From: an uncultured Flavobacteriaceae bacterium
GTDB taxonomy: Bacteria; Bacteroidota; Bacteroidia; Flavobacteriales; Flavobacteriaceae
NCBI GenBank assembly: GCA_938017825.1
Contig: CALIJE010000018.1
Coordinates: forward strand, 1 to 64,000
DNA: 64,000 nt
Reading direction: 5' to 3'
Program-made: the position numbers and the translations under genes
Notes under the pieces: generated by a model
Database searches by the model: none
The model's input: the letters and a program-made list of their open reading frames with translations, nothing else
Told to the model about the DNA's origin: nothing
Shown here: positions 18,588 to 62,707 of the stretch, piece by piece
How the letters are laid out: each line of letters opens with the position of its first letter
How positions within the stretch are numbered: position 1 is the first letter of the stretch

Positions 18588-18629
18588 AATCACTTTCTAT
18601 TAGGTTACTAATTGTTGAGTTCTCTAAAA

Positions 18630-27806: not shown

Positions 27807-27816
27807 TTCCTGAGAT

Positions 27817-31450: not shown

Positions 31451-32320
31451 CTACCTACCCCAACCGGCACCTGCTTCCCCTTTTTGTAGAGCACGAACCT
31501 CGGCAATATCTTTTGGGGGGTTCAACCATTTTGGTTTGTTTTCTTTTGCCCATGCCAATAGTTTTTCAGGAAACTCGTCATGACTTTCTACCCGCCACGA
31601 GTGCAATTGAATAATGGCTTTCTTATCTGGCATGCCAGCCCATTGTGGCAGCGCCCCATAACGTTGCCAAGCCATTTGATGTGGTTCATCAACACTTCCT
31701 TCGGGATGCACAAAGAAATCATAATTTTCCCACGCTTGATACTGTTTTCCGGTGGGCAGTGGAAAGTCTAAATACACCTGGGCGTTGTATATATAACTGC
31801 TGCCCATTTTACGATACGGAATACCATCTTCAGATTTAATCGTCTGAACCCGTTCTCCAACACCTTGCTCTACATCGCCATAAATCCTATCATTCTCTAA
31901 ACGATAGGTAATCATTTGATAGGGATATGCGATTGGTGTAACCGGTTGGCCATTGTATTCGGTCAAGACTTCACCGGTTTCAGGATCTGTATAGGCAAAT
32001 GTCTTTCGAGTTAAATGTGTTACAATACCGTCCGCTTCTTCAGGCCAAATCACGGTAGAGCTATCAAAGCCGATCATTCCGAAGAGTTTTTCTCCTGAGG
32101 GATATTCGTAGACCGCGCCATCTGCAACCCAATGCACAGGATCACCGGTACCCGCTCTAGCATCTACCCAATTCTTCAACGCATCAGGGGCCTTTTTATA
32201 AGAATCCTTATCGGCCCAGGGGTGAACCACCTTTTCATCTTTTTCGATCTCATTGGTTTCTACATTCTCTTTACATCCAAAAAGAAAAACAACCAATACT
32301 AAAGGAAGTAATCGTCTCAT
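31451..32320 (-). CDS. DUF1838 family lipoprotein 1
   Basis: A 289-residue protein. MRRLLPLVLVVFLFGC gives a lipobox Cys at residue 16. The mature part matches DUF1838: TFAYTDPETGEVLTEYNGQP, followed by AYPYQMITYRLENDRIYGD and a Trp-rich C-terminal half (QMAWQRYGALPQWAGMP). DUF1838 has no known function. It is a single-gene unit whose start lies 34 bp from a short operator shared with the divergent flavoprotein gene. Other members occur at 54236 and 63180 in this window, in both cases near CpeT-like genes. Confidence 0.82.
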   Translation of the reverse strand: MRRLLPLVLVVFLFGCKENVETNEIEKDEKVVHPWADKDSYKKAPDALKNWVDARAGTGDPVHWVADGAVYEYPSGEKLFGMIGFDSSTVIWPEEADGIVTHLTRKTFAYTDPETGEVLTEYNGQPVTPIAYPYQMITYRLENDRIYGDVEQGVGERVQTIKSEDGIPYRKMGSSYIYNAQVYLDFPLPTGKQYQAWENYDFFVHPEGSVDEPHQMAWQRYGALPQWAGMPDKKAIIQLHSWRVESHDEFPEKLLAWAKENKPKWLNPPKDIAEVRALQKGEAGAGWGR

Positions 32321-33326: not shown

Positions 33327-35984
33327 ATGAGAACTAAGAAACTTATGAATTTGGTCTGTTTATTCAGTTTTTTACTTTGTTCGGCAGGTATTTTTGCCCA
33401 AGGAACAGTAACAGGAACCGTGACAGATGAAAACAGTGTTCCGATTTTAGGAGCTACTGTGCAAGTAAAGGGTACCTCAACTGGTGCCGTAACCGATGAA
33501 AACGGAACATATAGCATTCAGGCATCTGACGGTGATGTGCTCGTTTTTTCCTATATCGGATTTGGCACAAAGCAAGCTACCGTTGCAGGTTCAACTGTAA
33601 ATATACAGATGCAGCCAGACGTTAGCCTTTTGAATGAGGTGGTTGTATCATCGACAAGGAAACCGGTAAGGAAACTACAGACCACTACTTCTATAAATAG
33701 TATTGGGATTGCGGACCTTGAGAACATAAGGCCAGAATCTGTTTCTGAGGCTCTTCAAAATACACCCGGGATTACAATCGATGAATCTCAAGGTAGAAAA
33801 GGTGGATTTAATATTAGAGGGTTCCCAGGTGGTAACTTCGTAACTACCTTAATAGATGGTATGCCTGTATCTGGTATTGCAGGACAATCTGGTGGAGTTC
33901 AAGAATTTTTCGGACTTGATCCAAACGTAGCGCGTATTGAGGTTGTAAGAGGCGCGGCTGCTACATTATTTGGTAGGTCTTCTGCGGCCGGTGCCTTGAA
34001 TATGATTTCTAAAACCGGTGGTACTGAGCACAAAGGTTCTGTCTCTTTTACCAAATATAATAATACGGCAAATGAAGGTCATATATATGATGGTGATTTT
34101 GACTATCGAGCAGATTTCAATTTAAATGGCCCATTGTCGGACAAGCTTCGCTATAATTTTGGAGGCTATGTTATCAATGACTCCGGTGTAAAAGAGCAAG
34201 CCAATAAAGACAAAGGTTTTCAGTTAAGGACCAACGTAGATTGGTTGGTTTCCGATAAAAGCAACATTCGATTTTATGCAGGGTATTTCAACAATCAATT
34301 CCAGAACATAATCGGTTCTGTTTGGGATATGGCGAATGAAAGTTTAGCAGATGGTTGGAATCCTAGAAGTACTTTTTACAACGATCCTTTGGGCTCCACA
34401 GTGCTAAATCAAGATTTAGGGGTAAGACAAGCTTTCTTTAATCCTACACCGGCAACCAATGCGGCTGGTGGTGGTGCATTAACTTGGAACCCCGCCGAAA
34501 GTATAGAACGAGCAAAAGGTATCAACTTCGGAATTGATGCGAACTTTCATCTGGGCAATAATTGGTACTTTTCAGAAAAAATACGATACAACGACTTCTT
34601 TCTTCGCGATATCAATGATTTGAACCTCACTACAATTTTTGAGCGTGGTGATACTACAACACGATTAAATGCCAACGCACTAAATCAAAATAGAGATTTG
34701 TTGACCGAAACGAGATTTAGCAAACTTATTCAAGGAGAATCATCAGAACACAATTTAACCTTTGGGCTTTATTATAGTGATGCTAAAAGAGACCGTCTCG
34801 GCTTTAACTATTTTTATGGGTCTAATGTTAGTCCTCGACCTACCTTTACCACCTTATTTGGTTTTGGTAATGGTTCTTTTTCAGACCCTACCTTACCGCA
34901 AACAGTTTATATTTCAAATACCTCATCCCACAGGGAAGAATCTGCAACAGGTCTGTTTCTAGGAGACGAAATGGTCTTCAATGAAAAGCTCAGCGTGAAT
35001 GCAGGTTTCCGTTATGATTGGCAAAAAGGTTATATCAACAATAATCCGGAAGAAATTAGGGAAAAGTCGATAGACTATGATCCTGCAACAGTAGAAGAAA
35101 ATGAAATAAAACTCAAAGATTATTCTTTCTCGATCGGAGCAAACTATTTAACTGGCGAATCCTCAGCTGTGTATGCAAACTTTACGCGTTCATTTACCTT
35201 TCAAACGGTTGACGAAGTTGATGATGAATTCTTGGATAATGAATTGGTAAAAAACTTTGAAGTAGGTTACCGTGCGGGTCTTGGGGATATAACGCTCGAT
35301 GCTACTTATTTCAATACCAATATAGATAATAGTGTATCTACGGTATTTGACAATGATGTAGGTGGATTTGTAGATCGCCCTGCCGGGTCGTACAAAATAA
35401 ATGGTGCTGAAATTGCTCTTGCATATACCCCAAAACTGCTTAAAGGCTTATTATTGAGCGGTAGTTTTACGCTACAAAACTCAGAATATGATGATTTCAT
35501 TGAGGGTATTTCCGATGCTACCGTTACGGCGATCAATGATAGTGGTAATGTACTTGGTCTAGAATTAGTAACCGAAGGCGGTGCAACTGCGCTTAACCTT
35601 TCTGGAAACCAAGTGCGCCAGCAACCAAAAACCATTTTTAATCTTAATTTGGCGTACAATAGTAAGTACTGGGGCGCAAATTTCGGTGGATTTACCTATA
35701 CTGGCCTTTATTATGACAACGCCAATATCTACAGCGATCAGAATCTAAGCGTTTACAATGCGGGTGCATATGTGAAATTTCCATTAGGAAACGATGAACT
35801 TAGAATTTCAATGTTGGTAAAGAATTTATTTGACGGTGCCAATCCTCAAAATATATTTACAGCAGGTGGTTTAGATGAGGTTATCCAGACCACGATAGCA
35901 GACCCGAATTACACCAATCAACTGGCGTTCCTAGTAAATCAAAATCCTAAAAGGGTCTTGTTTACCATAGGTTACTCTTTTTAA
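33327..35984 (+). CDS. TonB-dependent outer-membrane receptor
   Basis: An 885-residue receptor: signal peptide (residues 1-24, ending IFAQG), a carboxypeptidase-like regulatory domain (about 25-100; TVTGTVTDENSVPILGATVQ), a plug domain (about 115-225; NIRGFPGGNFVTTLIDGMPV, VARIEVVRGAAATLFGRSSA) and a 22-strand barrel ending in the aromatic YSF. There is no SusD partner and no TonB-box-linked sigma regulator. Receptors of this kind import siderophores, heme-like compounds or other molecules too large for porins. As the only receptor in the regulon it is the best candidate for uptake of the primary substrate. It is a single-gene unit with a terminator after it. Confidence 0.93.
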   Translation: MRTKKLMNLVCLFSFLLCSAGIFAQGTVTGTVTDENSVPILGATVQVKGTSTGAVTDENGTYSIQASDGDVLVFSYIGFGTKQATVAGSTVNIQMQPDVSLLNEVVVSSTRKPVRKLQTTTSINSIGIADLENIRPESVSEALQNTPGITIDESQGRKGGFNIRGFPGGNFVTTLIDGMPVSGIAGQSGGVQEFFGLDPNVARIEVVRGAAATLFGRSSAAGALNMISKTGGTEHKGSVSFTKYNNTANEGHIYDGDFDYRADFNLNGPLSDKLRYNFGGYVINDSGVKEQANKDKGFQLRTNVDWLVSDKSNIRFYAGYFNNQFQNIIGSVWDMANESLADGWNPRSTFYNDPLGSTVLNQDLGVRQAFFNPTPATNAAGGGALTWNPAESIERAKGINFGIDANFHLGNNWYFSEKIRYNDFFLRDINDLNLTTIFERGDTTTRLNANALNQNRDLLTETRFSKLIQGESSEHNLTFGLYYSDAKRDRLGFNYFYGSNVSPRPTFTTLFGFGNGSFSDPTLPQTVYISNTSSHREESATGLFLGDEMVFNEKLSVNAGFRYDWQKGYINNNPEEIREKSIDYDPATVEENEIKLKDYSFSIGANYLTGESSAVYANFTRSFTFQTVDEVDDEFLDNELVKNFEVGYRAGLGDITLDATYFNTNIDNSVSTVFDNDVGGFVDRPAGSYKINGAEIALAYTPKLLKGLLLSGSFTLQNSEYDDFIEGISDATVTAINDSGNVLGLELVTEGGATALNLSGNQVRQQPKTIFNLNLAYNSKYWGANFGGFTYTGLYYDNANIYSDQNLSVYNAGAYVKFPLGNDELRISMLVKNLFDGANPQNIFTAGGLDEVIQTTIADPNYTNQLAFLVNQNPKRVLFTIGYSF

Positions 35985-39321: not shown

Positions 39322-40224
39322 ATGAAGGTAATTCTTGAAGAGCAAGGGCTACGAGACGGACTCCAAACCTTGGCGCAGATTATTCCGACCAAAAAAAAAT
39401 TGGAATACATTGACCGCCTGGTGGATGCCGGAATTAAGCGCATTCAAATTGCTTCTTTTGTGCACCCAAAATTGGTTCCTCAAATGGCGGATGCTGAAGA
39501 TGTGTGTAACGGCATAACCAAAAAAGAAGGGGTAATATACAGCGGGTTGGTACTAAATTTAAAAGGAGTTGAACGAGGCATAACGTCAGGCCTTGATCAT
39601 TTGGCCTGCTCAATATCCGCAAGTGATACGCACAGTCAAAAGAATGCCCGTTTAACCTTAAACGAGGCCAAAAACGCCTTTAAGGAAATGGTAAAACTCT
39701 CCCAGGAAAATGGAATTACGGTACGCGGAGGAATCCAATGTGCATTTGGCTGTAGATACGAAGGAAGAATAGATCCGAAGCATGTCCTGGACATGGTTGA
39801 CCATCATTTGGACACGGGCATCGATGAATTGGCACTCGCAGATTCTACGGGCATGGCAAATCCAAAACAGCTGGGAGATTTAATGCACAAAGTTGTAGAT
39901 AAGGCCGGTAACATACCGGTAGCACTCCACTTGCACAACACTGAAAATAAAGGCTATGCCAATTTTTATGCGGCCCTCATGGCAGGTGTGCAAATTTTCG
40001 ACACGGCTTTTGGCGGTTTGGGCGGTTGCCCTTTTATCAAAAGCGCCACAGGGAACATCGCGACCGAGGACACAGCGCATTTTGCACGGCAAATTGGCTA
40101 TGAAACTGGACTCGATATTGAAAAAATTGCAGCTATGAGCAGAGAAATGGAAGTTATTCTGGGACATAAACTCCCTGGGCAGTTGTACCAATTGGTAAAC
40201 AAGGAAGAAATCAAAATGATATAA
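39322..40224 (+). CDS. HMG-CoA lyase-like (pyruvate-type) CoA-ester lyase
   Basis: The start is set at the ATG at 39322, preceded by AAAAAAGGA, giving 300 residues; a TTG 60 bp upstream is less likely. TIM-barrel HMGL-like lyase: catalytic Arg11-Asp12 in EEQGLRDGLQ, metal ligands in VALHLHNTENKG, and the flexible-loop Cys in FGGLGGCPFIKSATGN. Family members cleave 3-hydroxy-acyl-CoA esters; known chemistry includes HMG-CoA and citramalyl-CoA-type cleavage. As first gene before a hydratase and a family III CoA-transferase it most likely performs the final C-C cleavage to pyruvate plus an acyl-CoA (inference). Free leucine catabolism is the alternative, but no MCC or HMG genes are nearby. Confidence 0.88.
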   Translation: MKVILEEQGLRDGLQTLAQIIPTKKKLEYIDRLVDAGIKRIQIASFVHPKLVPQMADAEDVCNGITKKEGVIYSGLVLNLKGVERGITSGLDHLACSISASDTHSQKNARLTLNEAKNAFKEMVKLSQENGITVRGGIQCAFGCRYEGRIDPKHVLDMVDHHLDTGIDELALADSTGMANPKQLGDLMHKVVDKAGNIPVALHLHNTENKGYANFYAALMAGVQIFDTAFGGLGGCPFIKSATGNIATEDTAHFARQIGYETGLDIEKIAAMSREMEVILGHKLPGQLYQLVNKEEIKMI

Positions 40225-40242
40225 AGTCTTTAAGGCAATTTA

Positions 40243-41478
40243 ATGGGACAAACTATTTCAGAAAAAATCATATCGAACCATGTTGGTAAAAAGGTGTACG
40301 CTGGGGAACTGGTCATCAGTAAAGTCGATGGGGCCATGGCCAGCGATACGACCGGCCCATTGACCATTAAGGCCTTCAAGGAAATGGGCGGCGAAAAGGT
40401 TTTTGACCCTAAAAAATGTGCCTTGATTATAGATCATGCGGCTCCTTCACCGAACGAGCGTATTGCAAATTTGCATAAGATGATGCGCGACTTTGCCAAG
40501 GAACAAGGTATGCGTTTATTTGAAATTGGGGAGGGCATTTGCCACCAAGTTATGGTGGAGAACGAATATGTAAAACCCGGTGATATTTTTATCGGTGCAG
40601 ATTCTCACACGCCAACCTATGGGGCATTGAACGCCTTTGCATGTGGTGTAGGTTCTACCGATTTGGCAGCGACCATGATGACCGGTAAGATCTGGCTGAA
40701 AGTGCCACAAACGATACAAATAAATTGTTCGGGAAAACTAAAGGAAGGTGTTACGGCTAAAGATTTAATTCTCTTTTTGGTCGGTAAAGTAACCGTTTCC
40801 GGGGCTACCTATCAAGCTATAGAATTCACGGGCGAAGCCTTCGAAGGTATGAGTTTGGCCAGCAGAATGACCATCGCGAACATGTCTTCGGAAATGGGTG
40901 CGAAAACCGGAATCGTTCACCCAAAAGGACTAAAATTGGATTATGATTTTAAGGCAGTCATTCCAGATGAAGATGCGAACTATGTGAAGACCTTTGATTT
41001 TGATGTTTCAGGATTGGAGCCACAAGTTAGCGCACCAGAATCTCCAGACAACGTCCACAACATTTCAAAATATGAAGGCACAAAAATCGATTACGCCTTT
41101 ATCGGTACCTGCTGTAATGGCCGTCTGGAAGATCTTGATATTGCGGCGGAAATTCTAAGGGGGAAAAAAATACATCCAAACGTGCGAATGGTCATCGCAC
41201 CTGCATCTCAAAGTGTTCTACTCGATGCCATAGGCAATGGCACCATGAGTACGTTGATAGAAGCCGGGGCATCCTTGATAACTTCAGGCTGCGGGCCGTG
41301 CGTGGGAACCCATCAAGGGGTGCCAGCAGATGGTGAAGTGGTTATTTCGGCCGCGAATAGAAATTTCAGAGGACGAATGGGGAACCCGAATTCGAATATA
41401 TACCTAGGCGCTCCTTCAACAGTCGCCGCCTCTGCTTTAGAAGGTCACATTACAAATCCGAAAAAATACCTTTTATAG
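40243..41478 (+). CDS. LeuC/dimethylmaleate-hydratase-like large subunit
   Basis: A 411-residue aconitase-superfamily large subunit. The [4Fe-4S] ligands are C290 (GTCCNGRLED), C350 and C353 (SGCGPCVGTH). The IGADSHTPTYGALNAFACG loop and GRMGNPNSNIYLGAPSTVAA end motif are canonical. It is shorter than biosynthetic LeuC and close in length to two-subunit homoaconitase, maleate hydratase or 2,3-dimethylmaleate hydratase. With no leucine biosynthesis genes nearby, hydration of a substituted maleate is the best fit. It begins 18 bp after the lyase. Confidence 0.9.
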   Translation: MGQTISEKIISNHVGKKVYAGELVISKVDGAMASDTTGPLTIKAFKEMGGEKVFDPKKCALIIDHAAPSPNERIANLHKMMRDFAKEQGMRLFEIGEGICHQVMVENEYVKPGDIFIGADSHTPTYGALNAFACGVGSTDLAATMMTGKIWLKVPQTIQINCSGKLKEGVTAKDLILFLVGKVTVSGATYQAIEFTGEAFEGMSLASRMTIANMSSEMGAKTGIVHPKGLKLDYDFKAVIPDEDANYVKTFDFDVSGLEPQVSAPESPDNVHNISKYEGTKIDYAFIGTCCNGRLEDLDIAAEILRGKKIHPNVRMVIAPASQSVLLDAIGNGTMSTLIEAGASLITSGCGPCVGTHQGVPADGEVVISAANRNFRGRMGNPNSNIYLGAPSTVAASALEGHITNPKKYLL

Positions 41479-41479
41479 A

Positions 41480-41986
41480 ATGGCGGTAAAAACCAACATT
41501 AAAGCGAAAGCACATGTTTACGGCAATCATATCGATACCGACCGTATCATTCCAGGGAAGTATACCAAGACTTTGGATCTATCGACTTTAGCGAATCATG
41601 TTCTAGAGGATTTAGACCCTGAATTCAATAAAATAGTTGCACAAGGGGACATCTTAGTGGCCGGAATCAATTTCGGTTGTGGATCCTCCCGTGAACAGGC
41701 GCCCTTGGCACTTAAACAGGCGGGTATCTCTGTAGTTATCGCCCGAGATTTTGCCCGTATATTTTTCAGAAATGCCATTAATATTGGGCTTCCCGTTTTA
41801 GAAATATCGGATCATCAAATACAAAAAGGAGCGAAACTCGATGTTGACTTAAAGAACGGGATCGTGAAAGATCTTACCGCTAACATATCTTATGAAGCCA
41901 CCAAATTACCAGACATTATGATTGCTATCCTTAATGAAGGTGGACTTGTAAATTATCTAAAGAAAAACGGAAACTATTCCTTATAA
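41480..41986 (+). CDS. LeuD/dimethylmaleate-hydratase-like small subunit
   Basis: A 168-residue small subunit. HIDTDRIIPGKYTK (about residues 17-30) and NFGCGSSREQAPLALK (S69, S70, R71) keep the canonical substrate-binding residues that the first LeuD copy has lost. It pairs with the large subunit, whose stop is 1 bp upstream, to make the hydro-lyase. The Gln after SSRE, where His is usual in LeuD, may tune substrate choice. Confidence 0.9.
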   Translation: MAVKTNIKAKAHVYGNHIDTDRIIPGKYTKTLDLSTLANHVLEDLDPEFNKIVAQGDILVAGINFGCGSSREQAPLALKQAGISVVIARDFARIFFRNAINIGLPVLEISDHQIQKGAKLDVDLKNGIVKDLTANISYEATKLPDIMIAILNEGGLVNYLKKNGNYSL

Positions 41987-41988
41987 AA

Positions 41989-42558
41989 ATGAGCAGATTA
42001 GAACCCATATCCGATTATGCTGAAAGTGAACTTGCGCCTCTTTTTGAGAAGGCCGAACAGTGGATGGGGTTTCAGCCGAACGATGGGTTGCTTATGGCTC
42101 ACAAACCTAAATTGCTGGTCTCTTTTTTTAGTCTGGCCAAAGCAGTTTATGACGAAGGGGATGTAGAGCCTGGGCTAAAACGTATGATCGGCCATATTAC
42201 AAGTCTTTCTGCGGGATGCGAATATTGTTCCGCCCATACAGCGTATGGAGCTGGCAAACAAGGTGTATCTGCCGAAAAAATGAAAGCCATCTGGGATTTT
42301 AAGACTTCACAACTGTTCTCAGAAAAGGAGAAAGCAGCTTTGAACGTTGGACTGAAATCAGGTATGACACCCAATCAGGTAACTGATGCCGATTTCGAAG
42401 CTTTGAAGGCTCACTTTTCAAACGCTGCAATTGTTGAAATCGTAGGTGTCATTTCTATGTTCGGTTTTTTAAATCGGTGGAACTCTACTTTCAACACACA
42501 ACTAGAACCAATTCCTGAAGCTTTTTATCAATCTATTAAAACGGAAACCAATGAGTAG
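41989..42558 (+). CDS. AhpD/carboxymuconolactone-decarboxylase-like protein
   Basis: A 189-residue helical protein of the CMD/AhpD superfamily. The CEYCSAHTAYGA motif provides the redox CxxC plus proton-relay His of AhpD-type peroxidases, so an alkylhydroperoxidase role is more likely than lactone decarboxylation. It lies 2 bp after the hydratase subunit and overlaps the CoA-transferase start by 8 bp, so its product is needed alongside the pathway, perhaps to handle peroxides made by the oxidases of this locus. Confidence 0.85.
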   Translation: MSRLEPISDYAESELAPLFEKAEQWMGFQPNDGLLMAHKPKLLVSFFSLAKAVYDEGDVEPGLKRMIGHITSLSAGCEYCSAHTAYGAGKQGVSAEKMKAIWDFKTSQLFSEKEKAALNVGLKSGMTPNQVTDADFEALKAHFSNAAIVEIVGVISMFGFLNRWNSTFNTQLEPIPEAFYQSIKTETNE

Positions 42559-43732
42559 CATGCCCTTAAAAGGTATTAAAGTCTTAGAATTCACCCATGC
42601 TGTGATGGGGCCTTGTGCCGGGTTACTACTTGCAGACATGGGAGCCGAGGTAATACATGTTGAAGCGACCCATGGGGATAGCACCAGAAGGTTACAAGGA
42701 TTCGGTACTGGTTACTTTTGGTTTTATAACCGTAATAAAAAAAGTTTAGCAGTAAACTTGAAATCAGAAAAGGGTGTTCAACTGATTTATGATTTGGTAA
42801 AGGACTATGACGTGGTTGTCGAAAACTTTGGCCCGGGCACTATGGATCGATTGGGATTGGGCTACGACAAACTCAAAACAATCAACAAGCGACTTATCTA
42901 TTGTTCGCTCAAAGGATTTCTAAGTGGGCCATATGAGAAACGTCATGCAATGGATGAAGTTGTTCAGATGATGGGCGGTCTGGCCTATATGACCGGCCGT
43001 GAAGGAGACCCTTTGAGGGCTGGCACTTCTGTAATTGATATTACAGGTGGTATGTTCGGGTATATTGGCATTTTACAGGCACTGTACGAACGTGAGAAAA
43101 CCGGGGAAGGCGGATTTGTAAAGTCGGCACTTTTTGAAACTTGTGCCTTCTTAATGGGGCAGCACATGGCGTATTCCTCACAAATCAACTATCAAATTCC
43201 GCCGATGCCCAGTCGGGTGAGCGCTTGGAGCATCTACAAAGTTTTTGACACCAAGGATGATGATAAGGTGTTTATTGGGATTATCAGCGAAAAACATTGG
43301 GAACGCTTATGCGATGTCTTCGGATGGATGGATTGGAGAAATGATAGCCGTCTTGCCACCAATAACAAACGAATAGATGAAAGAGACTGGTTTTTGTCAG
43401 CTTTGGCTGAACGCCTTCAGCAGTTCACCAAACAAGAAATTATCGATCGCTGTGACAAGGGTCATATTCCATTTGCACCCATTAGTCGCCCTGAAGACCT
43501 TTTCGAGGACGAACAACTGAACCAAGGCGAAAGTCTCATGGAAGTGGATATGGGGAATGGAAAAACTACAAAATTGCCTAAATTCCCTTTAGAATACAAA
43601 GGTAGTCGTGTTGAAAAACGTCTAGATCCCCCAAAAATCGGAGAACATACGATTGAAGTTCTTAAGAGCCTTGATATCGATGATAGTACTATAGCAAAAA
43701 TGGTAGCTGAAGGAATAATTAAAACCCACTAG
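42551..43732 (+). CDS. Family III CoA-transferase (CaiB/BaiF)
   Basis: A 393-residue protein with GIKVLEFTHAVMGPCAGLLLADMGAEVI at the start, AVNLKSEKGVQLIYDLV, and the catalytic Asp in HAMDEVVQMMGGLAYMTG near residue 137. It transfers CoA from a donor such as succinyl- or acetyl-CoA onto a carboxylate. Between a hydratase and an HMGL-like lyase it should make the hydroxy-diacid CoA thioester, as in itaconate or citramalate catabolism (inference). Start overlaps the AhpD-like gene. Confidence 0.92.
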   Translation: MSSMPLKGIKVLEFTHAVMGPCAGLLLADMGAEVIHVEATHGDSTRRLQGFGTGYFWFYNRNKKSLAVNLKSEKGVQLIYDLVKDYDVVVENFGPGTMDRLGLGYDKLKTINKRLIYCSLKGFLSGPYEKRHAMDEVVQMMGGLAYMTGREGDPLRAGTSVIDITGGMFGYIGILQALYEREKTGEGGFVKSALFETCAFLMGQHMAYSSQINYQIPPMPSRVSAWSIYKVFDTKDDDKVFIGIISEKHWERLCDVFGWMDWRNDSRLATNNKRIDERDWFLSALAERLQQFTKQEIIDRCDKGHIPFAPISRPEDLFEDEQLNQGESLMEVDMGNGKTTKLPKFPLEYKGSRVEKRLDPPKIGEHTIEVLKSLDIDDSTIAKMVAEGIIKTH

Positions 43733-43733
43733 A

Positions 43734-44192
43734 TTGAAGAAAAATATCTTGAAATATATCAGCCTAGCCAGTTTTGCCATAATTCTTTTTATCGGGTGCG
43801 GGACTCAAGAATCGCAGAGTGACATCCTTGATCAAATACAACGACAAATCGACAATCTAAAAAAGGCCCATTTAAACAGTGATGTTGATTTAGCCGATAG
43901 GCTATATCATCCTAACTTGATACTAACGTCTCAAAGTGGCACCAAATATGACAAAGAGGTAGCCTTAAAAAATATTGAGAATACTTTTGAAAGCTATGTC
44001 AATGCGGACATCGAGTTTTTGCAAGTTTCCAATTCGGTTGTTTTGACCAATTACATCAACGAACGCAAGTATAAAGATTTTGATAAAGGCAGATTTCGAC
44101 TTACTGTACTTTGGATCAAACACGAAGGAGAATGGAAAATAATTTCTATGCAATCCTCCAAAATAAAAGAACCTAAGAGAACATCAGGATAA
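43734..44192 (+). CDS. SnoaL/DUF4440-like lipoprotein
   Basis: A 152-residue protein with a TTG start 1 bp after the previous stop. KYISLASFAIILFIGC is a lipoprotein signal with Cys near residue 22. The mature part has the NTF2-like pattern of DUF4440 (IDNLKKAHLNSDVDLADRLYHPN, FRLTVLWIKHEGEWKIISMQ). An envelope-anchored NTF2 protein within a chain of cytosolic enzymes repeats the mixed-compartment theme of this locus. No function can be assigned. Confidence 0.75.
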   Translation: MKKNILKYISLASFAIILFIGCGTQESQSDILDQIQRQIDNLKKAHLNSDVDLADRLYHPNLILTSQSGTKYDKEVALKNIENTFESYVNADIEFLQVSNSVVLTNYINERKYKDFDKGRFRLTVLWIKHEGEWKIISMQSSKIKEPKRTSG

Positions 44193-44205
44193 ACCCGATC
44201 AGAAC

Positions 44206-44883
44206 ATGAAAGGAACAAAAATGCAAAGCACCGATAAAACGGCCAAGGAACTCTATTATGAGGTTAAGGCCAATCCTGCTCGAAAACGATTTGGCTTTGG
44301 TAAAAAAGCGGCTTTGGTCAACATCGATATTCAAAAGGCCTATACACGAACAGACCTATTCAAGACAGCCTATGAAGCAGACCCTAAACAATTAGAATAT
44401 GTGAATAAGCTAGCCGCCAAATTCAGGGCTTTGGGTTGGCCAGTTGTATGGACCAATGTGGCCTATATGGATTCGGCCGATGATGCCGGTATCTGGGGTA
44501 CAAGAACAGATACACCCGATAGTTTACAAAACATAAAATTTGGTTCGGAACGTGCCGAGCTAGATGATCGACTGATTTTAGATCGAAGGACCGATGTGTT
44601 TTACGAAAAGAAAATGCCTTCGCCCTTTTTTGAGACTCCGTTACAATCCTTGCTGGTTTGGCATCAGATTGATACGGTTGTCTTGACCGGAGGTTCAACC
44701 TCTGGCTGTGTCAGAGCAGCAGGAGTGGATTCCTTGTCAAGAGGATATCGAACCATCATTCCGGAAGAATGTGTCGCCGATAAGCACGAAAGTTATCACT
44801 ATGCAAATTTAACCGACCTATCATTGAAGTACTGCGATGTACGAGAGGTAAATGAGGTTTTTGAGTGGTTGAACAGTATTTGA
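44206..44883 (+). CDS. Isochorismatase-fold amidase (N-carbamoylsarcosine/maleamate amidohydrolase-like)
   Basis: A 225-residue cysteine hydrolase. The triad is D41 (LVNIDIQKAYTRTD), K135 or K136 (FYEKKMPSPFFETP) and C168 (TGGSTSGCVRAAGVDS). The sequence is very like N-carbamoylsarcosine amidase and NicF maleamate amidohydrolase, which release ammonia from a terminal amide. It precedes two imidase/allantoinase-like genes, so it most likely hydrolyses the half-amide formed by ring opening (inference). Cytosolic. A second ATG at 44221 is a possible start. Confidence 0.9.
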   Translation: MKGTKMQSTDKTAKELYYEVKANPARKRFGFGKKAALVNIDIQKAYTRTDLFKTAYEADPKQLEYVNKLAAKFRALGWPVVWTNVAYMDSADDAGIWGTRTDTPDSLQNIKFGSERAELDDRLILDRRTDVFYEKKMPSPFFETPLQSLLVWHQIDTVVLTGGSTSGCVRAAGVDSLSRGYRTIIPEECVADKHESYHYANLTDLSLKYCDVREVNEVFEWLNSI

Positions 44884-44887
44884 AAAG

Positions 44888-45838
44888 ATGAAAGAAGATC
44901 CAGGATATTACGATTATTGGCCGTACGAAAACAGGCCAAAGATTGTATGGCCGAATGGCGCAAAAGTTGCCTTTTGGGTGGCCCCCAATATAGAATTTTA
45001 CGAATTGAATCCGCCGAACAACCCTTTCAGAAAACCGTGGCCAAGACCTAATCCGTCTTTACCTGGCTATACCAGTCGTGATTGGGGAAATCGAGTAGGA
45101 CACATACGTCAAATGGATTTGCTGGAAAAGTATGGTATTCGAGGTTCTATTTCGCTGTCTGCAGCATTGTGCGACCATCATCCTGAAATTATTGAACGCT
45201 GCAAAGAGCGCGATTGGGAATTCTTTAGTCATGGCATCTACAATACCCGTTATACCTACGGAATGACGGAAGCCCAAGAGCGCGAGATGATAAAGGATTC
45301 TATTGAAACGATTTTTAAACACACTGGTCAAAAATGTGGCGGCTACCTCGCACCTGCCTTGTCGCATTCGGAATATACCTTAGACCTTTTTGCCGAAGTT
45401 GGCACTGAACTCTTTGGAGATGAAGCCGGATTTTATTCTTGTGATTTATTTCATGATGACCAGCCAACACCGATTCACTTGCGAAGTGGGAAGCGATTTG
45501 CCTCTATCCCCTATTCGTTGGAAATGAACGATACCATTGCCTACTTGGTTCAAAAAATCACCCCACGGAGATATGGAAAGGAATTGAAGGATAATTTTGA
45601 CCGCTTGTATGAAGAGGGTAAAGAAAGTGGAACGATTATGTGTATACCTACTCATAATTATCAGGTAACCAATGCCCATCGTATCAAAGCCTATGAAGAG
45701 GCATTGGAATATATTACCGGCCACACTGACGTATGGGTCACTACAGGAAAAGAAATTGCCCAATACTTCTTGGATAATTATTACGATATCGCTTTGGTAG
45801 ATATAAAAACCAAAAACAAGAAATATGGGAACGCTTAG
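44888..45838 (+). CDS. Polysaccharide-deacetylase-fold hydrolase 1 (imidase/allantoinase-like)
   Basis: A 316-residue NodB-fold protein without a signal peptide. IVWPNGAKVAFWVAPNIEFYE, RDWGNRVGHIRQMDLLEKYGIR and WEFFSHGIYNTRYTYGM mark the cytosolic branch that includes PuuE allantoinase and, as I recall, cyclic imide hydrolases; CIPTHNYQVTNAHRI supplies a late His. Such enzymes open cyclic amide or imide rings. It lies 4 bp after the amidase and overlaps the second hydrolase by 14 bp. It is not a chitin or peptidoglycan deacetylase candidate because there is no export signal. Confidence 0.85.
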   Translation: MKEDPGYYDYWPYENRPKIVWPNGAKVAFWVAPNIEFYELNPPNNPFRKPWPRPNPSLPGYTSRDWGNRVGHIRQMDLLEKYGIRGSISLSAALCDHHPEIIERCKERDWEFFSHGIYNTRYTYGMTEAQEREMIKDSIETIFKHTGQKCGGYLAPALSHSEYTLDLFAEVGTELFGDEAGFYSCDLFHDDQPTPIHLRSGKRFASIPYSLEMNDTIAYLVQKITPRRYGKELKDNFDRLYEEGKESGTIMCIPTHNYQVTNAHRIKAYEEALEYITGHTDVWVTTGKEIAQYFLDNYYDIALVDIKTKNKKYGNA

Positions 45839-46751
45839 CGACGACTATCTGAACTACCCAGAGCGTTCCTATGGTATGGACCATGAGCGTTACAAATGGA
45901 CCATGTTGCAAAATCGAAAAGAAGTACAATGGCCGAAAGGGAAAAAGATTGCACTTTGGATCAACGTAGGTTTACAGTTCTTTCCCCTAAACCAAAAAGG
46001 AGTTCCCTTTAAAGTTCCCGGCGGGATGACCAAACCCTACCCGGATTTACGGCATTTTAGCCTGCGTGATTATGGAAACCGTGTTGGTATCTTTCGCCTT
46101 CTAAACGCTTTTGACCATTACAACATTACCCCCACTTTTGCAATGAATACAAGATTAGCCGAACGCCTGCCCTATTTAACCGGAAAGATAAAGGAGCGTG
46201 GTAACGAAATTATGTGTCATGGTTATGATATGGATAAACTGCACTTTGGAGGTCAAAACGAGCAAGAAGAGACAGATTTGGTAAAACGTTCTTTAGATAA
46301 ACTTCGAGCACTAACTGGCCAGGATATTGCAGGATGGATTAGTCCTGCTAAAAACGAATCTGAAAATACTCCAGATATTTTAGCCGCACATGGCATCTCT
46401 TACTTCTGCGATTGGGTGAACGATGACATGCCCTATGATTTCAAGACCAAGAATGGTACCCTAACGGCCATGCCTTTAAGTACAGAATTGGAGGATCGCT
46501 TTATCATATTGAATAACTATCATTCTGCTGAGGATTGGGCCGATCAAGTCGATGATGCTTTTGAGTTCTTATTAAAGGAAAGTGAACTACTTGGCGGACG
46601 CATCCTGAGCCTAAATATTCATCCATGGGTATTGGGTCAACCCCATAGAATTCAATATCTTGAACGTATCCTAGATCGATTGAGCAGTCATCATGAGGTA
46701 TGGTCTTCATCAGCAAGCGAAATAGAAAAAGCTTGGAAAATGCAACAGTAA
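45825..46751 (+). CDS. Polysaccharide-deacetylase-fold hydrolase 2 (imidase/allantoinase-like)
   Basis: A 308-residue paralogue of the preceding gene: VQWPKGKKIALWINVGLQFF, SLRDYGNRVGIFRLLNAFDHY, GNEIMCHGYDMDKLHFGGQ and ILSLNIHPWVLGQPHRIQYL. The motif spacing is conserved but the overall sequence is clearly diverged, so the two may form a heteromer or act on different ring substituents. The start overlaps the first copy, indicating coupled translation. Cytosolic. Confidence 0.84.
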   Translation: MGTLSDDYLNYPERSYGMDHERYKWTMLQNRKEVQWPKGKKIALWINVGLQFFPLNQKGVPFKVPGGMTKPYPDLRHFSLRDYGNRVGIFRLLNAFDHYNITPTFAMNTRLAERLPYLTGKIKERGNEIMCHGYDMDKLHFGGQNEQEETDLVKRSLDKLRALTGQDIAGWISPAKNESENTPDILAAHGISYFCDWVNDDMPYDFKTKNGTLTAMPLSTELEDRFIILNNYHSAEDWADQVDDAFEFLLKESELLGGRILSLNIHPWVLGQPHRIQYLERILDRLSSHHEVWSSSASEIEKAWKMQQ

Positions 46752-46764
46752 ACCACCAAACCAA

Positions 46765-47661
46765 ATGACGGAATTTCTTTCGGCACATATACCAACGATT
46801 CTGCAACTCCTACTTTTTCTCGTTATGTTCGGAATGGGAATGACTTTGACCATTCCAGACTTTACTCGTGTGGGGGTAGCACCAAAAGCTGTTTTTACCG
46901 GCTTGGTGAATCAAATTGTACTTGTACCGCTTATCGCTTATGGAATTGTGCTCCTTGTTCCCATGGAACCGATGATCGCCATGGGCCTTATGGTCTGTGC
47001 CTGCAGCCCGGGTGGAGCGGTCTCCAATCTATTTTCCTTTTTGTCGAAAGGAGATACCGCCCTTTCGATCACCTTGACCGCAATTAGCAGTATCGTAACG
47101 ATATTTACCATTCCCTTGATCATCAATTTTTCTTTAGACAGTATCTTGGGTGAAGCCTCAAAAAACATTCAACTTCCTTTGGGCAAAACCATTTTCAATA
47201 TTTTTAAGTTAACGGCATTACCGGTTTTCTTAGGTATGTTCATCAATTACAAATTTCCTAAAACTGCTGAAAAAAGCAAACCCGCTATCAAATGGGGTTC
47301 TATTGCCGTTATTGTACTTGCATTGATTTTTATGATATTAAAATTAGAGGAAATAGGGGATAGCTGGGCTTTCCTAAAGGCCTGCTTCCTAAGTGTGGTT
47401 TTGCTGAATATTTTTACTTTGGGCGCGGGCTTTTTTAGTTCAAGAATTCTAAAGTTGCCCACCAAACAAGCCGCTACCATTAGTATTGAGAGCGGTATGC
47501 AAAATAATGTCCTAGGAATGACCCTGGCCATGTCACCAGGTTTACTGAATAGTCCTGAAATGGCCGCTACGCCGGGAGTGTACGGCGTAGTCATGAGTGT
47601 CTTGGCAATTGGTGTTATCTTTATGTACAAACGATTGATTACAAAAAGGGAAACAGAATGA
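46765..47661 (+). CDS. BASS family (bile acid:sodium symporter-like) transporter
   Basis: A 298-residue membrane protein with about nine to ten helices. LVMFGMGMTLTIPDFTRV and MVCACSPGGAVSNLFSFLSKGD (the Na+-binding crossover motif) and the later IESGMQNNVLGMTLAM are characteristic of BASS/SBF transporters. They carry organic anions such as bile acids, pyruvate or pantoate with Na+. It overlaps the following SDR gene by 4 bp (ATGA). In this operon it could import an imide-derived acid or pyruvate-like intermediate. Confidence 0.88.
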   Translation: MTEFLSAHIPTILQLLLFLVMFGMGMTLTIPDFTRVGVAPKAVFTGLVNQIVLVPLIAYGIVLLVPMEPMIAMGLMVCACSPGGAVSNLFSFLSKGDTALSITLTAISSIVTIFTIPLIINFSLDSILGEASKNIQLPLGKTIFNIFKLTALPVFLGMFINYKFPKTAEKSKPAIKWGSIAVIVLALIFMILKLEEIGDSWAFLKACFLSVVLLNIFTLGAGFFSSRILKLPTKQAATISIESGMQNNVLGMTLAMSPGLLNSPEMAATPGVYGVVMSVLAIGVIFMYKRLITKRETE

Positions 47662-48431
47662 AGCTACATCTCGAAAATAAACTCTTCTTGGTTGGGGGCG
47701 CCACCAGTGGTTTTGGTAAGGCAATAACCGAACAATTGGTGGACGAAGGGGCTCAAGTGATTGCTGTTGCCCGCACAAAATCGAAGCTCATTGAGTTACA
47801 AAGCGGCAATTCGAAAATTGAAATTATCGAAGCAGATCTTTCAGAAGAATCTGCTTTACAAGCAATATTAAAACAGCTAGGTAATCGAATTTTGACAGGT
47901 GCCGTGATTAATTCCGGGGGGCCTCCGGCCATGCCAGTAATGGACACCAAGCTATCTGATTGGGATGCGGCCTATAAATCTGTTGTGCGTTGGAAAATTG
48001 CCCTGACACAAGCTTTGATTCCAAAAATGATCAAAACCGGATATGGTAGATTACTTTATATTGAGAGTGTGTCTACCAAACAGCCAGTAGAAAACTTAGT
48101 GTTGAGCAATGCCATGAGGTTAGCCGTAACGGGTTATGTAAAAACCCTCTCTCAGGAGATAGGTGCGTCGGGTGTAACGCTCAATATATTAGGGCCAGGT
48201 TACCATGCTACGCAACGTATGGAAAATCTGTTCGCCAAGAATAGCGAGCTAAAAGGAATTCCCGAAGAGGAATTAAGAAAAACGTTTTCTGAACAAACCG
48301 CAGTAAAACAAATAGGAAAACCAGAAAATTTCGCCTCTTTGGCCTTGTGGCTACTCTCCTCTCATAGCAGTTATATTACTGGGCAGACCATTACCGTTGA
48401 CGGTGGTTTGGTCAAAGGTACGATGGGGTAG
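47658..48431 (+). CDS. SDR-family protein lacking the Tyr-x3-Lys catalytic pair
   Basis: A 257-residue SDR fold: LFLVGGATSGFGKAITEQL (NAD loop) and NILGPGYHATQRM are standard. Where YxxxK is expected, after YIESVSTKQP, the sequence reads LSNAMRLAVTGYVKTL, so the catalytic Tyr and Lys are missing. A group of SDR proteins with this feature exists and may bind cofactor without classical chemistry, or use other residues. It is the last gene of the large plus-strand operon, 7 bp from the convergent reductase gene. Confidence 0.85.
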   Translation: MKLHLENKLFLVGGATSGFGKAITEQLVDEGAQVIAVARTKSKLIELQSGNSKIEIIEADLSEESALQAILKQLGNRILTGAVINSGGPPAMPVMDTKLSDWDAAYKSVVRWKIALTQALIPKMIKTGYGRLLYIESVSTKQPVENLVLSNAMRLAVTGYVKTLSQEIGASGVTLNILGPGYHATQRMENLFAKNSELKGIPEEELRKTFSEQTAVKQIGKPENFASLALWLLSSHSSYITGQTITVDGGLVKGTMG

Positions 48432-51614: not shown

Positions 51615-51628
51615 CTATATCAATTGCT

Positions 51629-53134: not shown

Positions 53135-53199
53135 AACCATATAATGTTAATGGTATTTAGTGCCTTTAACTTGAATCAAAGTTTATAAGTAGAATACCA

Positions 53200-54207
53200 A
53201 TGAAAAAAATCAACGCCTATTTTCTGATGCTTATAGCACAATGCTGTTTTCATTCAGCACTAGCGATTTCAGCCACTGTTGAAGCAGACCCAAACCTTAG
53301 AGACCTAGGTCTTATAGCGCAATGGTTCGAAGGAGAATTTGATAATGATGAACAATTATGGGTTGAAGGTCGAAGTGATTGGTGGGGCAAAACAGATGAA
53401 AAACACGGTCGCATACATGCTATTCATCGCAGAATAAAAGCTGACAGTATTGGTCAATTCGTTTTCTATGTAGAAGAATACTTGGACGGCGACCCCAGTA
53501 AAATAGGTAGACAACGCATCGTTTCTTTTGAAAGTATAGGAGACAAACCAGGTATCGTCATGAAAATATATTTCCTGAAAGATGCCCCTAAGTATATTTT
53601 GACCAGTTCAACGCATGATGCCATGATTGCAAAAGTAAACAAGCATGTTCTTTTTGGTTTGGATGGATGTGATGTTCTATTTCAACGTGTCGGTCAACAA
53701 TTTCATGGTAGTATGGCTGAAAAAGCATGCCAGTTTGGGGAGGGTGACGAGCTGCGCTATTCGGTACATGATATGATTATCTCCGAAGGTGAATATTGGC
53801 GCGTTGACCGCACCTTTTTGGTGAAGGATGATTCGTTTTGGAAAGGACACCCTAACAGCGAACCGCATAAAATGCGAAAGGCCAATTTGTATACCTGCGA
53901 CGTTTCCTTCTATGAAAAAGCCTACTATCTTCCGGGTGAAAAAGATATGAGTTACAAAGGTTTGAAAGTACATGACCAAGGCGGAACGGTTTCTCTTCTA
54001 AATCCTATTGACAACAAGACTTATTTTATCCAATTACGTAACAAAGAATATCCATTCTATACATTGGAAGACTCCAATTTCTTCTTTTTACGTTTCAAGG
54101 AGGAGGGTGCCCAAGCTTCTACGGCCTTGGCTTTCGCCGAACCGAATGCAAAAAAAATTGGTTTTCAGATTAATTGGGTAAGCGCCACATGTGAATGTGA
54201 GCAATGA
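53200..54207 (+). CDS. Exported CpeT/CpcT-like protein 3
   Basis: A 335-residue protein with a Sec signal (YFLMLIAQCCFHSALA). Residues 42-52 read WFEGEFDNDEQ and the second motif is YVEEYLDGDPSKIGRQRI, both close to copy 1 at 4228; LDGCDVLFQRVGQQFHGSMA gives the third. The length and C-terminal part (YLPGEKDMSYKGLKVHDQGG) also match copy 1, so these two are the closest pair. It lies between an amine oxidase and a DUF1838 lipoprotein in one operon, all exported. Confidence 0.8.
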   Translation: MKKINAYFLMLIAQCCFHSALAISATVEADPNLRDLGLIAQWFEGEFDNDEQLWVEGRSDWWGKTDEKHGRIHAIHRRIKADSIGQFVFYVEEYLDGDPSKIGRQRIVSFESIGDKPGIVMKIYFLKDAPKYILTSSTHDAMIAKVNKHVLFGLDGCDVLFQRVGQQFHGSMAEKACQFGEGDELRYSVHDMIISEGEYWRVDRTFLVKDDSFWKGHPNSEPHKMRKANLYTCDVSFYEKAYYLPGEKDMSYKGLKVHDQGGTVSLLNPIDNKTYFIQLRNKEYPFYTLEDSNFFFLRFKEEGAQASTALAFAEPNAKKIGFQINWVSATCECEQ

Positions 54208-54235
54208 CACTTTAAAATTGGTAAATTCAACTACT

Positions 54236-55135
54236 ATGAAAAACAAATTTGATCTACTCAAAGTCATTAGTCCCCTAGTAATACTACTATTGTTTGGTTG
54301 CAACTCAAATACAGGGAACGGCGAGACCGAAACAAATACAATCACTGAAATAAATGAGCAGCAAGAACTAGCATATAATCTCAATGACCCAAAAGACAAG
54401 CTCCTAATTTTTGAAAAAATGCAAGGAGACCTATCAGGGAAAATGACCTTTTCTTATTCCGAGGGCCGCGTTTTTGGTATTCGTCCTGATCGCCCAGATA
54501 GCCTAAATGTTTTTGGAAAAGAGGTCTTTCGTTACTCGGGTTGTGGTATGAAAATCATGCGCTTACTGAACAACGGAAATGTAGAAACCAAATCTAAGGG
54601 TTGGCTTCTTTATCGCGACCCAAAAACAGGGGAGTTTCTCAGTGAAATGGTGAACCCGTACACTGGGGAAGAAATTGAAGTACCTCCATTCAGAGCTGGT
54701 ATTCGCGGAGGCGTTATGACACCAAAAGGCCCTGAGGTAGATGCTAGTTTTACTATGGAGAGTACCGCAATCGGTGCTCCTTTGGATTTAGTTTTTACAG
54801 AACTCGGTGATAAAATTCATATTACGCGACATGCCTTTACGAGATGGTTCGAATCGAAGTCCCAAACGTGGCGTACCGAAATGACCTTGGATACTTATGA
54901 TATTGATAGAAAACATTTGTATGACAGATCACTTACACATATTCCGGCGGAATATCACTGGACAAGTGAGACATCTTGGTTATCGCTTTTAAAAATGACC
55001 GGTACTCCCGGACATATGATATGGACCTCTAGTGGAAGTACGTTTATGAACATCGAAGATCTTCCTGCAGATTTTATTGCGGCTACAAAAGAAAAACAAC
55101 CCGACATTTTCGCTGAACCTTTAAAATGGGATTAA
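54236..55135 (+). CDS. DUF1838 family lipoprotein 2
   Basis: The start is set at 54236 because it gives a lipoprotein signal (LKVISPLVILLLFGC); 299 residues. DUF1838 features: GRVFGIRPDRPDSLNVFG, RYSGCGMKIMRL, GWLLYRDPKTGEFLSEMVNP followed by YTGEEIEVPPF, and a Trp-rich C-terminus (ETSWLSLLKMTGTPGHMIWT). It begins 28 bp after the CpeT-like gene and its stop overlaps the following amine oxidase start by 10 bp. The function of DUF1838 is unknown. Confidence 0.83.
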   Translation: MKNKFDLLKVISPLVILLLFGCNSNTGNGETETNTITEINEQQELAYNLNDPKDKLLIFEKMQGDLSGKMTFSYSEGRVFGIRPDRPDSLNVFGKEVFRYSGCGMKIMRLLNNGNVETKSKGWLLYRDPKTGEFLSEMVNPYTGEEIEVPPFRAGIRGGVMTPKGPEVDASFTMESTAIGAPLDLVFTELGDKIHITRHAFTRWFESKSQTWRTEMTLDTYDIDRKHLYDRSLTHIPAEYHWTSETSWLSLLKMTGTPGHMIWTSSGSTFMNIEDLPADFIAATKEKQPDIFAEPLKWD

Positions 55136-62703: not shown

Positions 62704-62707
62704 TTGA

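Follow-up and report, generated by a model that had tools for sequence, protein, structure and literature searches.

Cyclic imides are degraded by an imidase and a half-amidase. Nicotinate fermentation by Eubacterium barkeri uses dimethylmaleate hydratase and 2,3-dimethylmalate lyase. The degradation of itaconate via citramalyl-CoA uses CoA transfer and a CitE-like lyase. Plants break down chlorophyll and stop at phyllobilins. Here we describe an operon at 39322-48431 (+) in a 64,000-nucleotide stretch of DNA, the window, from an uncultured Flavobacteriaceae bacterium (assembly GCA_938017825.1, contig CALIJE010000018.1). Sequence comparisons suggest that this operon probably encodes the final part of a pathway that breaks down the pyrrole rings of linear tetrapyrroles, namely bilins or chlorophyll catabolites.

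The yearly synthesis and breakdown of chlorophyll is on a scale of 10^12 kg, and senescent leaves and lake sediments are reported to contain maleimides and hematinic acid (PMC7318184). Chlorophylls also yield free maleimides in early diagenesis (PMC9620498), and homologues of red chlorophyll catabolite reductase (RCCR) are reported in cyanobacteria (PMC2716323). Among the open-access papers listed by literature searches, for some searches the best 10-12 of many, none describes a bacterial gene cluster dedicated to the use of bilins, phycobilins, chlorophyll or maleimides; a report in a subscription journal could be missed.

The operon and a recurring ring-opening core

The operon is a run of 11 co-directional genes that overlap or are separated by gaps of 1-18 bp. 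Families were assigned by Pfam and NCBIfam profile scans. The run begins with an HMGL-type lyase (39322..40224 (+), scanned from 39319; PF00682, 138.9 bits), the proposed 3-substituted citramalyl-CoA lyase. LeuC1 (40243..41478 (+); PF00330, 324.1 bits; TIGR02086) and LeuD1 (41480..41986 (+); PF00694, 68.0 bits) are LeuC-type large and LeuD-type small subunits of a proposed substituted-maleate hydratase. They are followed by a CMD/AhpD-like protein (41989..42558 (+); PF02627, 33.3 bits), a class III CoA-transferase that may activate the hydrated diacid (42551..43732 (+); PF02515, 368.0 bits), a DUF4440 protein (43734..44192 (+); PF14534, 41.6 bits) and an isochorismatase-fold amidase, the proposed substituted-maleamate amidase (44206..44883 (+); PF00857, 101.7 bits). 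PuuE1 (44888..45838 (+); PF01522, 35.9 bits) and PuuE2 (45825..46751 (+); PF01522, 40.1 bits) are PuuE-like hydrolases with the polysaccharide-deacetylase fold and are proposed imidases. The last two genes encode a BASS-family transporter (46765..47661 (+); PF01758, 127.4 bits) and a short-chain dehydrogenase (SDR; 47658..48431 (+), named from sequence). An SDR follows the operon in most Flavobacteriaceae loci.

An earlier sequence-only reading had proposed a maleimide pathway here, and the enzymes that it named (two PuuE-like hydrolases, an amidase, a LeuCD-type hydratase, a CoA-transferase and an HMGL-like lyase) are present at the place and on the strand it gave. It did not list the CMD/AhpD-like and DUF4440 genes between them. 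Croceitalea, Maribacter algarum and other Flavobacteriaceae share the order from the HMGL-type lyase through LeuC, LeuD, CMD, CoA-transferase, DUF4440 and amidase to PuuE1 and PuuE2, in 8 loci (L036, L037, L038, L040-L043 and L108). This conservation excludes chance assembly. None of the seven pathway proteins reaches an NCBIfam equivalog cut-off, and they match broad subfamily models only. The annotations isopropylmalate isomerase, allantoinase and formyl-CoA transferase are therefore not earned.

We infer every substrate and reaction of the proposed route. Upstream enzymes would release single rings as 3-methyl-4-R-maleimides, for example hematinic acid. The PuuE1/PuuE2 pair would open the imide ring to a maleamate, which the amidase would convert to a substituted maleate and ammonia. 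The LeuC/LeuD-type hydratase would then add water at the methyl-bearing carbon, giving 2-hydroxy-2-methyl-3-R-succinate. Activation by the CoA-transferase would give the CoA ester of this acid, which the HMGL-type lyase would cleave to pyruvate and R-CH2-CO-CoA. For a methyl-bearing ring, we infer that hydration at that carbon and C2-C3 cleavage would yield pyruvate together with glutarate, butyrate or butenoate. A second hydratase in the window, LeuC2/LeuD2, and an HpaI-type aldolase may serve, independently of CoA, for a ring whose side chain differs. An enzyme of the dimethylmalate lyase family would carry out this CoA-free cleavage in many Gammaproteobacteria.

A scan with PuuE2 gave 179 relatives; the 80 best were examined, each with up to 10 kb per side. 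Many of these loci end at contig ends, so partner counts are lower bounds. Their neighbors form 99 clusters, among them some antisense reading frames (e.g. cluster 3), which were ignored. PuuE1 is present in all 80 loci and adjoins PuuE2 in every one. A frame-distance rule shows this adjacency in 79 loci; in L068 the stop-to-stop frames of the two overlap. The amidase lies directly upstream of the pair in 75; among the exceptions, L039, L051, L084 and L092 end at the locus edge and L097 has no amidase. This core spans Bacteroidota and Pseudomonadota.

A hydratase of LeuC or LeuD type lies within about 10 kb in 32 of the 80 loci (8 Flavobacteriaceae, 24 Pseudomonadota), and 26 of these 32 also contain a candidate lyase. 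Candidate lyases are found in 42 loci, and a hydratase or a lyase in 48. The lyases belong to different families: HMGL-type in 28/80 loci, HpcH-type in 8/80 and PEP-mutase/ICL-type, the family of dimethylmalate and methylisocitrate lyases, in 24/80. A CoA-transferase is found in 29/80 loci at the stricter cut and 35/80 by clustering, and a GntR regulator in 38/80. The ICL-type lyase of L063 (PF13714, 143 bits) is nearest to the petal death protein 1zlp (7.6e-55). It also matches methylisocitrate lyases and the 2,3-dimethylmalate lyase 3fa3 (2.1e-43), and misses the PrpB equivalog (256 of 354.4 bits). All 25 PEP-mutase/ICL-type members carry the K-x-CG-H motif, which presumably has its usual role in the ICL superfamily. 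Two of them with the motif KKCGHT (L048:17898 and L069:3971) may be ordinary methylisocitrate lyases.

The hydratases also differ in origin. In a tree of 66 rows with long-branch warnings, LeuC1 forms its own clade with orthologues from Flavobacteriaceae and genomes G013, G034, G131 and G283. Core-linked LeuC, L048 excepted, sit in clades apart from the LeuC of E. coli and from the biosynthetic LeuC of their own genomes. They include a Halieaceae/Microbulbifer/Porticoccaceae/Alteromonas clade, a Halomonas/Marinobacter/Saccharospirillum clade, a betaproteobacterial/Alkalimonas/Psychrosphaera clade and Bacteroidota clades; in view of the long-branch warnings we claim at least three hydratase clades and no exact number. 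L048 is a misfit, with its LeuC among biosynthetic ones and the LeuD loop FLL. The tree drew on 71 LeuC, and seven loci were left out beforehand: L006-L009, with the same genes as L126, L129, L131 and L134; L031 and L041, which nearly duplicate L030 and L042; and L124, whose frame is overlong. In L124, from the background-sample genome G390, a LeuC-type frame adjoins the PuuE pair and the amidase, so the omission of this locus gave the favored reading no advantage. The LeuC1 orthologues of G013, G034 and G131 contain a stop within the aligned range and yet have a 406-residue open frame; we take the stop to reflect an alignment overrunning the C-terminus.

The same ring-opening set is repeatedly paired with hydratases and lyases that differ in origin, and this is the strongest evidence for a single pathway. 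A second phylum shows the same logic of imidase, amidase, hydratase and lyase, built from other families of hydratase and lyase, which supports the maleimide pathway of the sequence-only reading. In eight Halomonas/Marinobacter/Saccharospirillum loci (L064, L077, L081, L082, L083, L085, L086 and L093), the hydratase, lyase, amidase and both PuuE proteins occur with a TRAP transporter, and these loci may represent a minimal imide-to-pyruvate set.

Pigment-linked genes and the surrounding cluster

Four proteins in the window belong by PF06206 (cut-off 21) to the CpcT/CpeT bilin lyase family: protein 1 (4228..5328 (-); 62.6 bits), protein 2 (22274..22984 (+); 94.8 bits), protein 3 (53200..54207 (+); 68.1 bits) and protein 4 (60999..61727 (-); 64.8 bits). 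The sole PDB match of protein 2 at E <=0.1 is the phycocyanobilin lyase CpcT (4o4o, 1.3e-6). The window's genome, 87% complete, has no CpeT matches other than these four. Three DUF1838 proteins (PF08894, cut-off 25) are at 31451..32320 (-) (a, 40.1 bits), 54191..55135 (+) (b, 54.6 bits) and 63180..63935 (-) (c, 223.7 bits), and a DUF3598_N protein is at 18069..18593 (-) (PF12204, 25.5 bits, cut-off 22). A predicted DUF1838 structure (mean pLDDT 72) has no match at E <=0.001, and its weak matches were not used.

Among the 80 core loci, RCCR is present in 9, DUF1838 in 12, CpeT in 5 (L112 at only 37 bits) and DUF3598 in 4. The RCCR copy of L063, a relative of the window's locus, reaches 70.3 bits with PF06405 (cut-off 24.9), and all three of its PDB matches at E <=0.1 are plant RCCR (3agb, 3.5e-13). 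In Microbulbifer (L101:11806-16658 and neighbors), a carbon-nitrogen hydrolase, an MFS transporter and RCCR stand beside the core.

Among 296 Bacteroidota genomes, PuuE2 is found in 4 at 1e-50, LeuC1 orthologues (>=65% identity) in 5 and CpeT in 23. CpeT is on the contig of LeuC1 in all five LeuC1 genomes. With the window's genome left out, CpeT is present in 4/4 genomes with a LeuC1 orthologue versus 18/291 without (Fisher p 2.4e-5; three of the four belong to a single genus). Many CpeT proteins of those 18 genomes outscore those of the window.

Among 274 genomes from the class to which G312 belongs (the genome of L063, Gammaproteobacteria), with G312 itself counted, RCCR is found in 2 and PuuE2 at 1e-60 in 3. 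DUF1838 occurs in 7 of the 274, including all three PuuE2 genomes; without any selection, it is present in 2/2 other PuuE2 genomes of this class sample versus 4/271 (p 4e-4). For a larger core sample, 50 of the 80 loci were picked by hand, mostly by dropping short contigs and near copies, and 49 genomes were searched, not all of them Gammaproteobacteria. RCCR is present in 15/49 core genomes versus 1/273 background genomes (Fisher p 1e-12), and DUF1838 in 36/49 versus 4/271 genomes without the core (Fisher p 4e-32). The sample is not purely gammaproteobacterial, the picking followed knowledge of the RCCR loci (6 of the 9 were included) and kinship was uncorrected, so these p values are too small and co-location is the firmer fact. 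RCCR lies on the contig of the core, about 5-52 kb away, in 12 of the 15 genomes, and on another contig in G316, G321 and G328. Genomes G315, G316 and G328 (L067, L068 and L087) each have 17-18 DUF1838 matches, some of them same-frame fragments, far above most genomes searched. G588 (L120) has RCCR and four DUF1838 matches and no PuuE2 match at 1e-60; it is either an incomplete genome or a variant without the core.

LeuC2 (16750..18018 (-); PF00330, 302 bits) is above the cut-off of the subfamily model and misses the equivalog, and LeuD2 (14852..15379 (-)) is divergent (PF00694, 26.3 bits, cut-off 22.8). The sequence-only reading did not mention this second set. Beside it is the HpcH/HpaI-family aldolase (13797..14558 (-); PF03328, 116.1 bits), a proposed free-acid lyase that misses the HpaI equivalog (155.7 of 368.8 bits). 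Their adjacency is kept in G013 (L125), G034 (L130), G131 (L131) and G283 (L134), and LeuC2 clusters with LeuC1 in these 4 other Bacteroidota, where both hydratases and both lyases are in one cluster with CpeT, DUF3598 and DUF1838. In G013, G034 and G131, the first half of this cluster reads amidase-PuuE1-PuuE2-SnoaL-methyltransferase-HyuB-HyuA-SDR-HpaI-LeuD2-LeuC2-DUF3598, adjoined by MFS-TonB-DUF1838-HMGL-LeuC1-LeuD1-CpeT-CoA-transferase; the two halves of the window correspond to one cluster. In G131 the cluster contig stops within the methyltransferase, and PuuE2 is matched on a different contig.

The HyuA-type subunit (10515..12587 (-); PF01968, 293.8 bits) may be part of an ATP-dependent lactamase. 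Its best NCBIfam model is caprolactamase alpha, with the cut-off missed (553.8 of 1000 bits). The HyuB-type subunit is at 7333..8952 (-) (PF02538, 473.1 bits). A TonB-dependent receptor (33327..35984 (+), named from sequence only) is proposed for uptake, and its homologue stands beside the cluster in L126, L129 and L131. The conserved protein hyp2 (24774..25493 (-)) has no Pfam match and is a beta-barrel in its predicted structure (pLDDT 90.9). It shares 48-69% identity with 18 Pseudomonadota copies and occurs in 17/80 core loci. Its best structural matches are the uncharacterized families DUF1849 and DUF1089, the nearest fold being DUF1849 6ntr (Z 16.4, rmsd 3.4, 208 aligned). A SAM-methyltransferase-like protein (6134-7321 (-)) accompanies the core in Bacteroidota and Pseudomonadota alike (12/80 loci, also L125, L130, L131 and L134).

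A second conserved run at 51123-56634 (+), also present in L040-L042, encodes a cytochrome c, two amine-oxidase-fold flavoproteins, CpeT and DUF1838; these proteins are candidates for upstream oxidation. Outside 39322-46751, the window has three amine-oxidase-fold flavoproteins. A formylglycine-generating-enzyme-like (FGE) protein (61750-62781 (-)) lies amid CpeT and DUF1838 genes. Pyruvate dehydrogenase E1 (long single-chain type) and E2, named from sequence, are at 26184-30492 (-) between catabolic genes, which fits a pathway yielding pyruvate.

The pathway of the sequence-only reading is the best reading of the operon, and the genes around it suggest that the substrate comes from linear tetrapyrroles. 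That reading had reached tetrapyrroles via hematinic acid only; neighbors of the CpcT/CpeT, DUF1838 and RCCR families now lend this origin support. With somewhat less assurance than for the operon itself, we favor a wider pathway, common to marine Bacteroidota and Pseudomonadota, that would mineralize linear tetrapyrroles to pyruvate, acyl-CoA and ammonia; the operon would be its downstream half, and CpcT/CpeT, DUF1838, DUF3598 and RCCR-like proteins would act upstream as binders or enzymes of the open-chain pigment.

Alternative readings

The core could instead be a substituted-cyclic-imide pathway fed by non-tetrapyrroles, such as other pyrroles, alkaloids or synthetic imides, with incidental bilin-type neighbors. 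We consider this unlikely, though it survives better than the other alternatives. It is favored by the eight minimal loci with a TRAP transporter: five of their genomes were searched (G313, G323, G325, G326 and G327), and RCCR and DUF1838 were not found in them. A non-tetrapyrrole source is opposed by the enrichment of RCCR and DUF1838 in core genomes, by the co-location of RCCR, and by the confinement of all CpeT matches of the window's genome to this window.

The operon might also combine two unrelated units, a set of ureide- or pyrimidine-type hydrolases and a branched-acid set (HMG-CoA, citramalate or itaconate-like). This is improbable. The HMGL-type lyase does exceed the cut-off of an HMG-CoA lyase subfamily model (NF004283, 297.7 bits, cut-off 246). 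It retains the RDG, HLHNT (HxH) and GGCP motifs, which we take to have the catalytic roles known in the HMG-CoA lyase family, and carries IQ in all Bacteroidota copies listed versus IE in the Pseudomonadota copies with a readable motif. The best model for the PuuE proteins is allantoinase, though PuuE1 and PuuE2 score far below its cut-off (TIGR03212, 97.5 and 113.1 of 424.6 bits). We reject plain allantoin use on this basis; ring hydrolases acting on allantoin or hydantoins alone were one outcome that the sequence-only reading had named as refuting it. PuuE1 and PuuE2 are diverged tandem copies with 28% identity. Two units are opposed by the recurrence, across separate lineages, of the PuuE/amidase set beside hydratases and lyases that differ in clade and family.

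The amidase is nearest in the PDB to N-carbamoylsarcosine amidohydrolase and to 4l07 (2.9e-27), which we take to be a maleamate amidase, although the match table calls it an isochorismatase-family hydrolase only and a literature search gave no confirmation. D41, K135 and C168 are each kept in at least 97% of 76 aligned rows; Asp, Lys and Cys are presumably the catalytic residues of isochorismatase-fold cysteine amidases. By family and residues the protein is such an amidase, with maleamate activity predicted.

The name of the CpcT/CpeT family comes from chromophore attachment, and the region could make or attach a bilin chromophore instead of degrading one. We regard this as very improbable: Pfam scans of 40 window proteins gave no match to a phycobiliprotein family (the remaining genes were not scanned), and the lyases, CoA-transferase and hydantoinase-type genes indicate breakdown.

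Despite the membership of LeuC1 and LeuD1 in the LeuC and LeuD families, ordinary leucine biosynthesis has next to no probability and was rejected, since the equivalogs are missed (LeuC1: LEU2 467.1 of 610.65 bits, leuC 222.9 of 560.25; LeuD1: 'leud' 197.8 of 245.85), the tree gives LeuC1 its own clade, a separate LeuC-LeuD set followed by a LeuA-like sequence is on contig C59 of the window's genome, and 18 of the 19 related genomes searched have another LeuC closer to that of E. coli (52-71% identity) than the core-linked copy. Tight grouping with biosynthetic LeuCD would have refuted the sequence-only reading, and LeuC1 does not group in this way. In G322 the core-linked LeuC is the sole LeuC match. 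LeuD1 does exceed the cut-off of the broad 'LeuD/DmdB family' model TIGR02087 (198.2 bits, cut-off 108.95). Its nearest PDB entry is 3vba (2.2e-44), and its loop reads YTKT versus YLRT in homoaconitase 2pkp.

Several observations weigh against a tetrapyrrole-degrading pathway as proposed here. The leaf study of PMC7318184 found hematinic acid and did not itself detect maleimides. Thirty-two of the 80 loci have neither a hydratase nor a candidate lyase in the examined stretch. G283 is rearranged: it has both hydratases and CpeT, and PuuE2 gave no match there at 1e-50. Of the 291 Bacteroidota genomes that lack a LeuC1 orthologue, 18 have CpeT, so CpeT by itself does not imply this pathway. RCCR was not found in 34 of the 49 core genomes, including four Flavobacteriaceae tested (the window's own genome was not searched), DUF1838 was not found in 13 of the 49, and the five searched minimal TRAP-type genomes lack matches to both. 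The HMGL-type lyase passes a model for ordinary HMG-CoA lyases. The CoA-transferase scores below the cut-offs of both the succinate-glutarate and the formyl-CoA transferase models, and its substrate is not assignable from family models. A glutaryl-CoA dehydrogenase beside the core would fix R as propionate; it is unsupported, as the three acyl-CoA dehydrogenases there fail its equivalog (193.0, 193.0 and 261.0 of 470 bits in L103, L110 and L107).

If the proposed pathway is correct, its genes would serve as markers for the turnover of pigment nitrogen and carbon. It would also give testable functions to DUF1838, and to CpcT/CpeT and RCCR homologues outside phototrophs. Named isolates with the core, e.g. 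Maribacter algarum, Marinobacter oulmenensis and Microbulbifer agarilyticus, allow direct testing.

Comparison with known systems

The proposed route resembles cyclic imide degradation in opening an imide ring and then hydrolyzing the amide. Unlike that system, the operon links the PuuE-like pair to a hydratase and C-C lyases, which would be needless for the use of plain succinimide or maleimide. PuuE allantoinase is similar in family and, by sequence, in fold (PuuE2 versus 3cl6, 7.6e-24). The operon proteins differ from it in falling far under the equivalog cut-off and in forming a tandem pair of diverged copies.

The hydration of a dialkylmaleate by an aconitase-superfamily enzyme and cleavage to pyruvate and an acid, as proposed for the operon, are shared with the E. 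barkeri system, and gammaproteobacterial loci hold a lyase of the 3fa3 superfamily. However, the operon would be fed from imides or amides and not from nicotinate, and the Bacteroidota version has a CoA-transferase and an HMGL-type lyase, plus an HpaI-type aldolase. Degradation via citramalyl-CoA is similar in that CoA transfer and a lyase yield pyruvate and an acyl-CoA. In contrast, the lyase of the operon is HMGL-like and not CitE-like, and its acid would carry a further side chain.

Chlorophyll breakdown in plants, by pheophorbide a oxygenase (PaO) and RCC reductase, is paralleled by RCCR homologues in relatives of the operon and by a Rieske oxygenase near the core in L053 and L063. Both of these Rieske proteins carry a VanA-type C-terminal domain, and the PaO domain is not among their listed domains; a PaO-type oxygenase was rejected on this basis. 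Unlike the plant pathway, the proposed bacterial route would continue to pyruvate.

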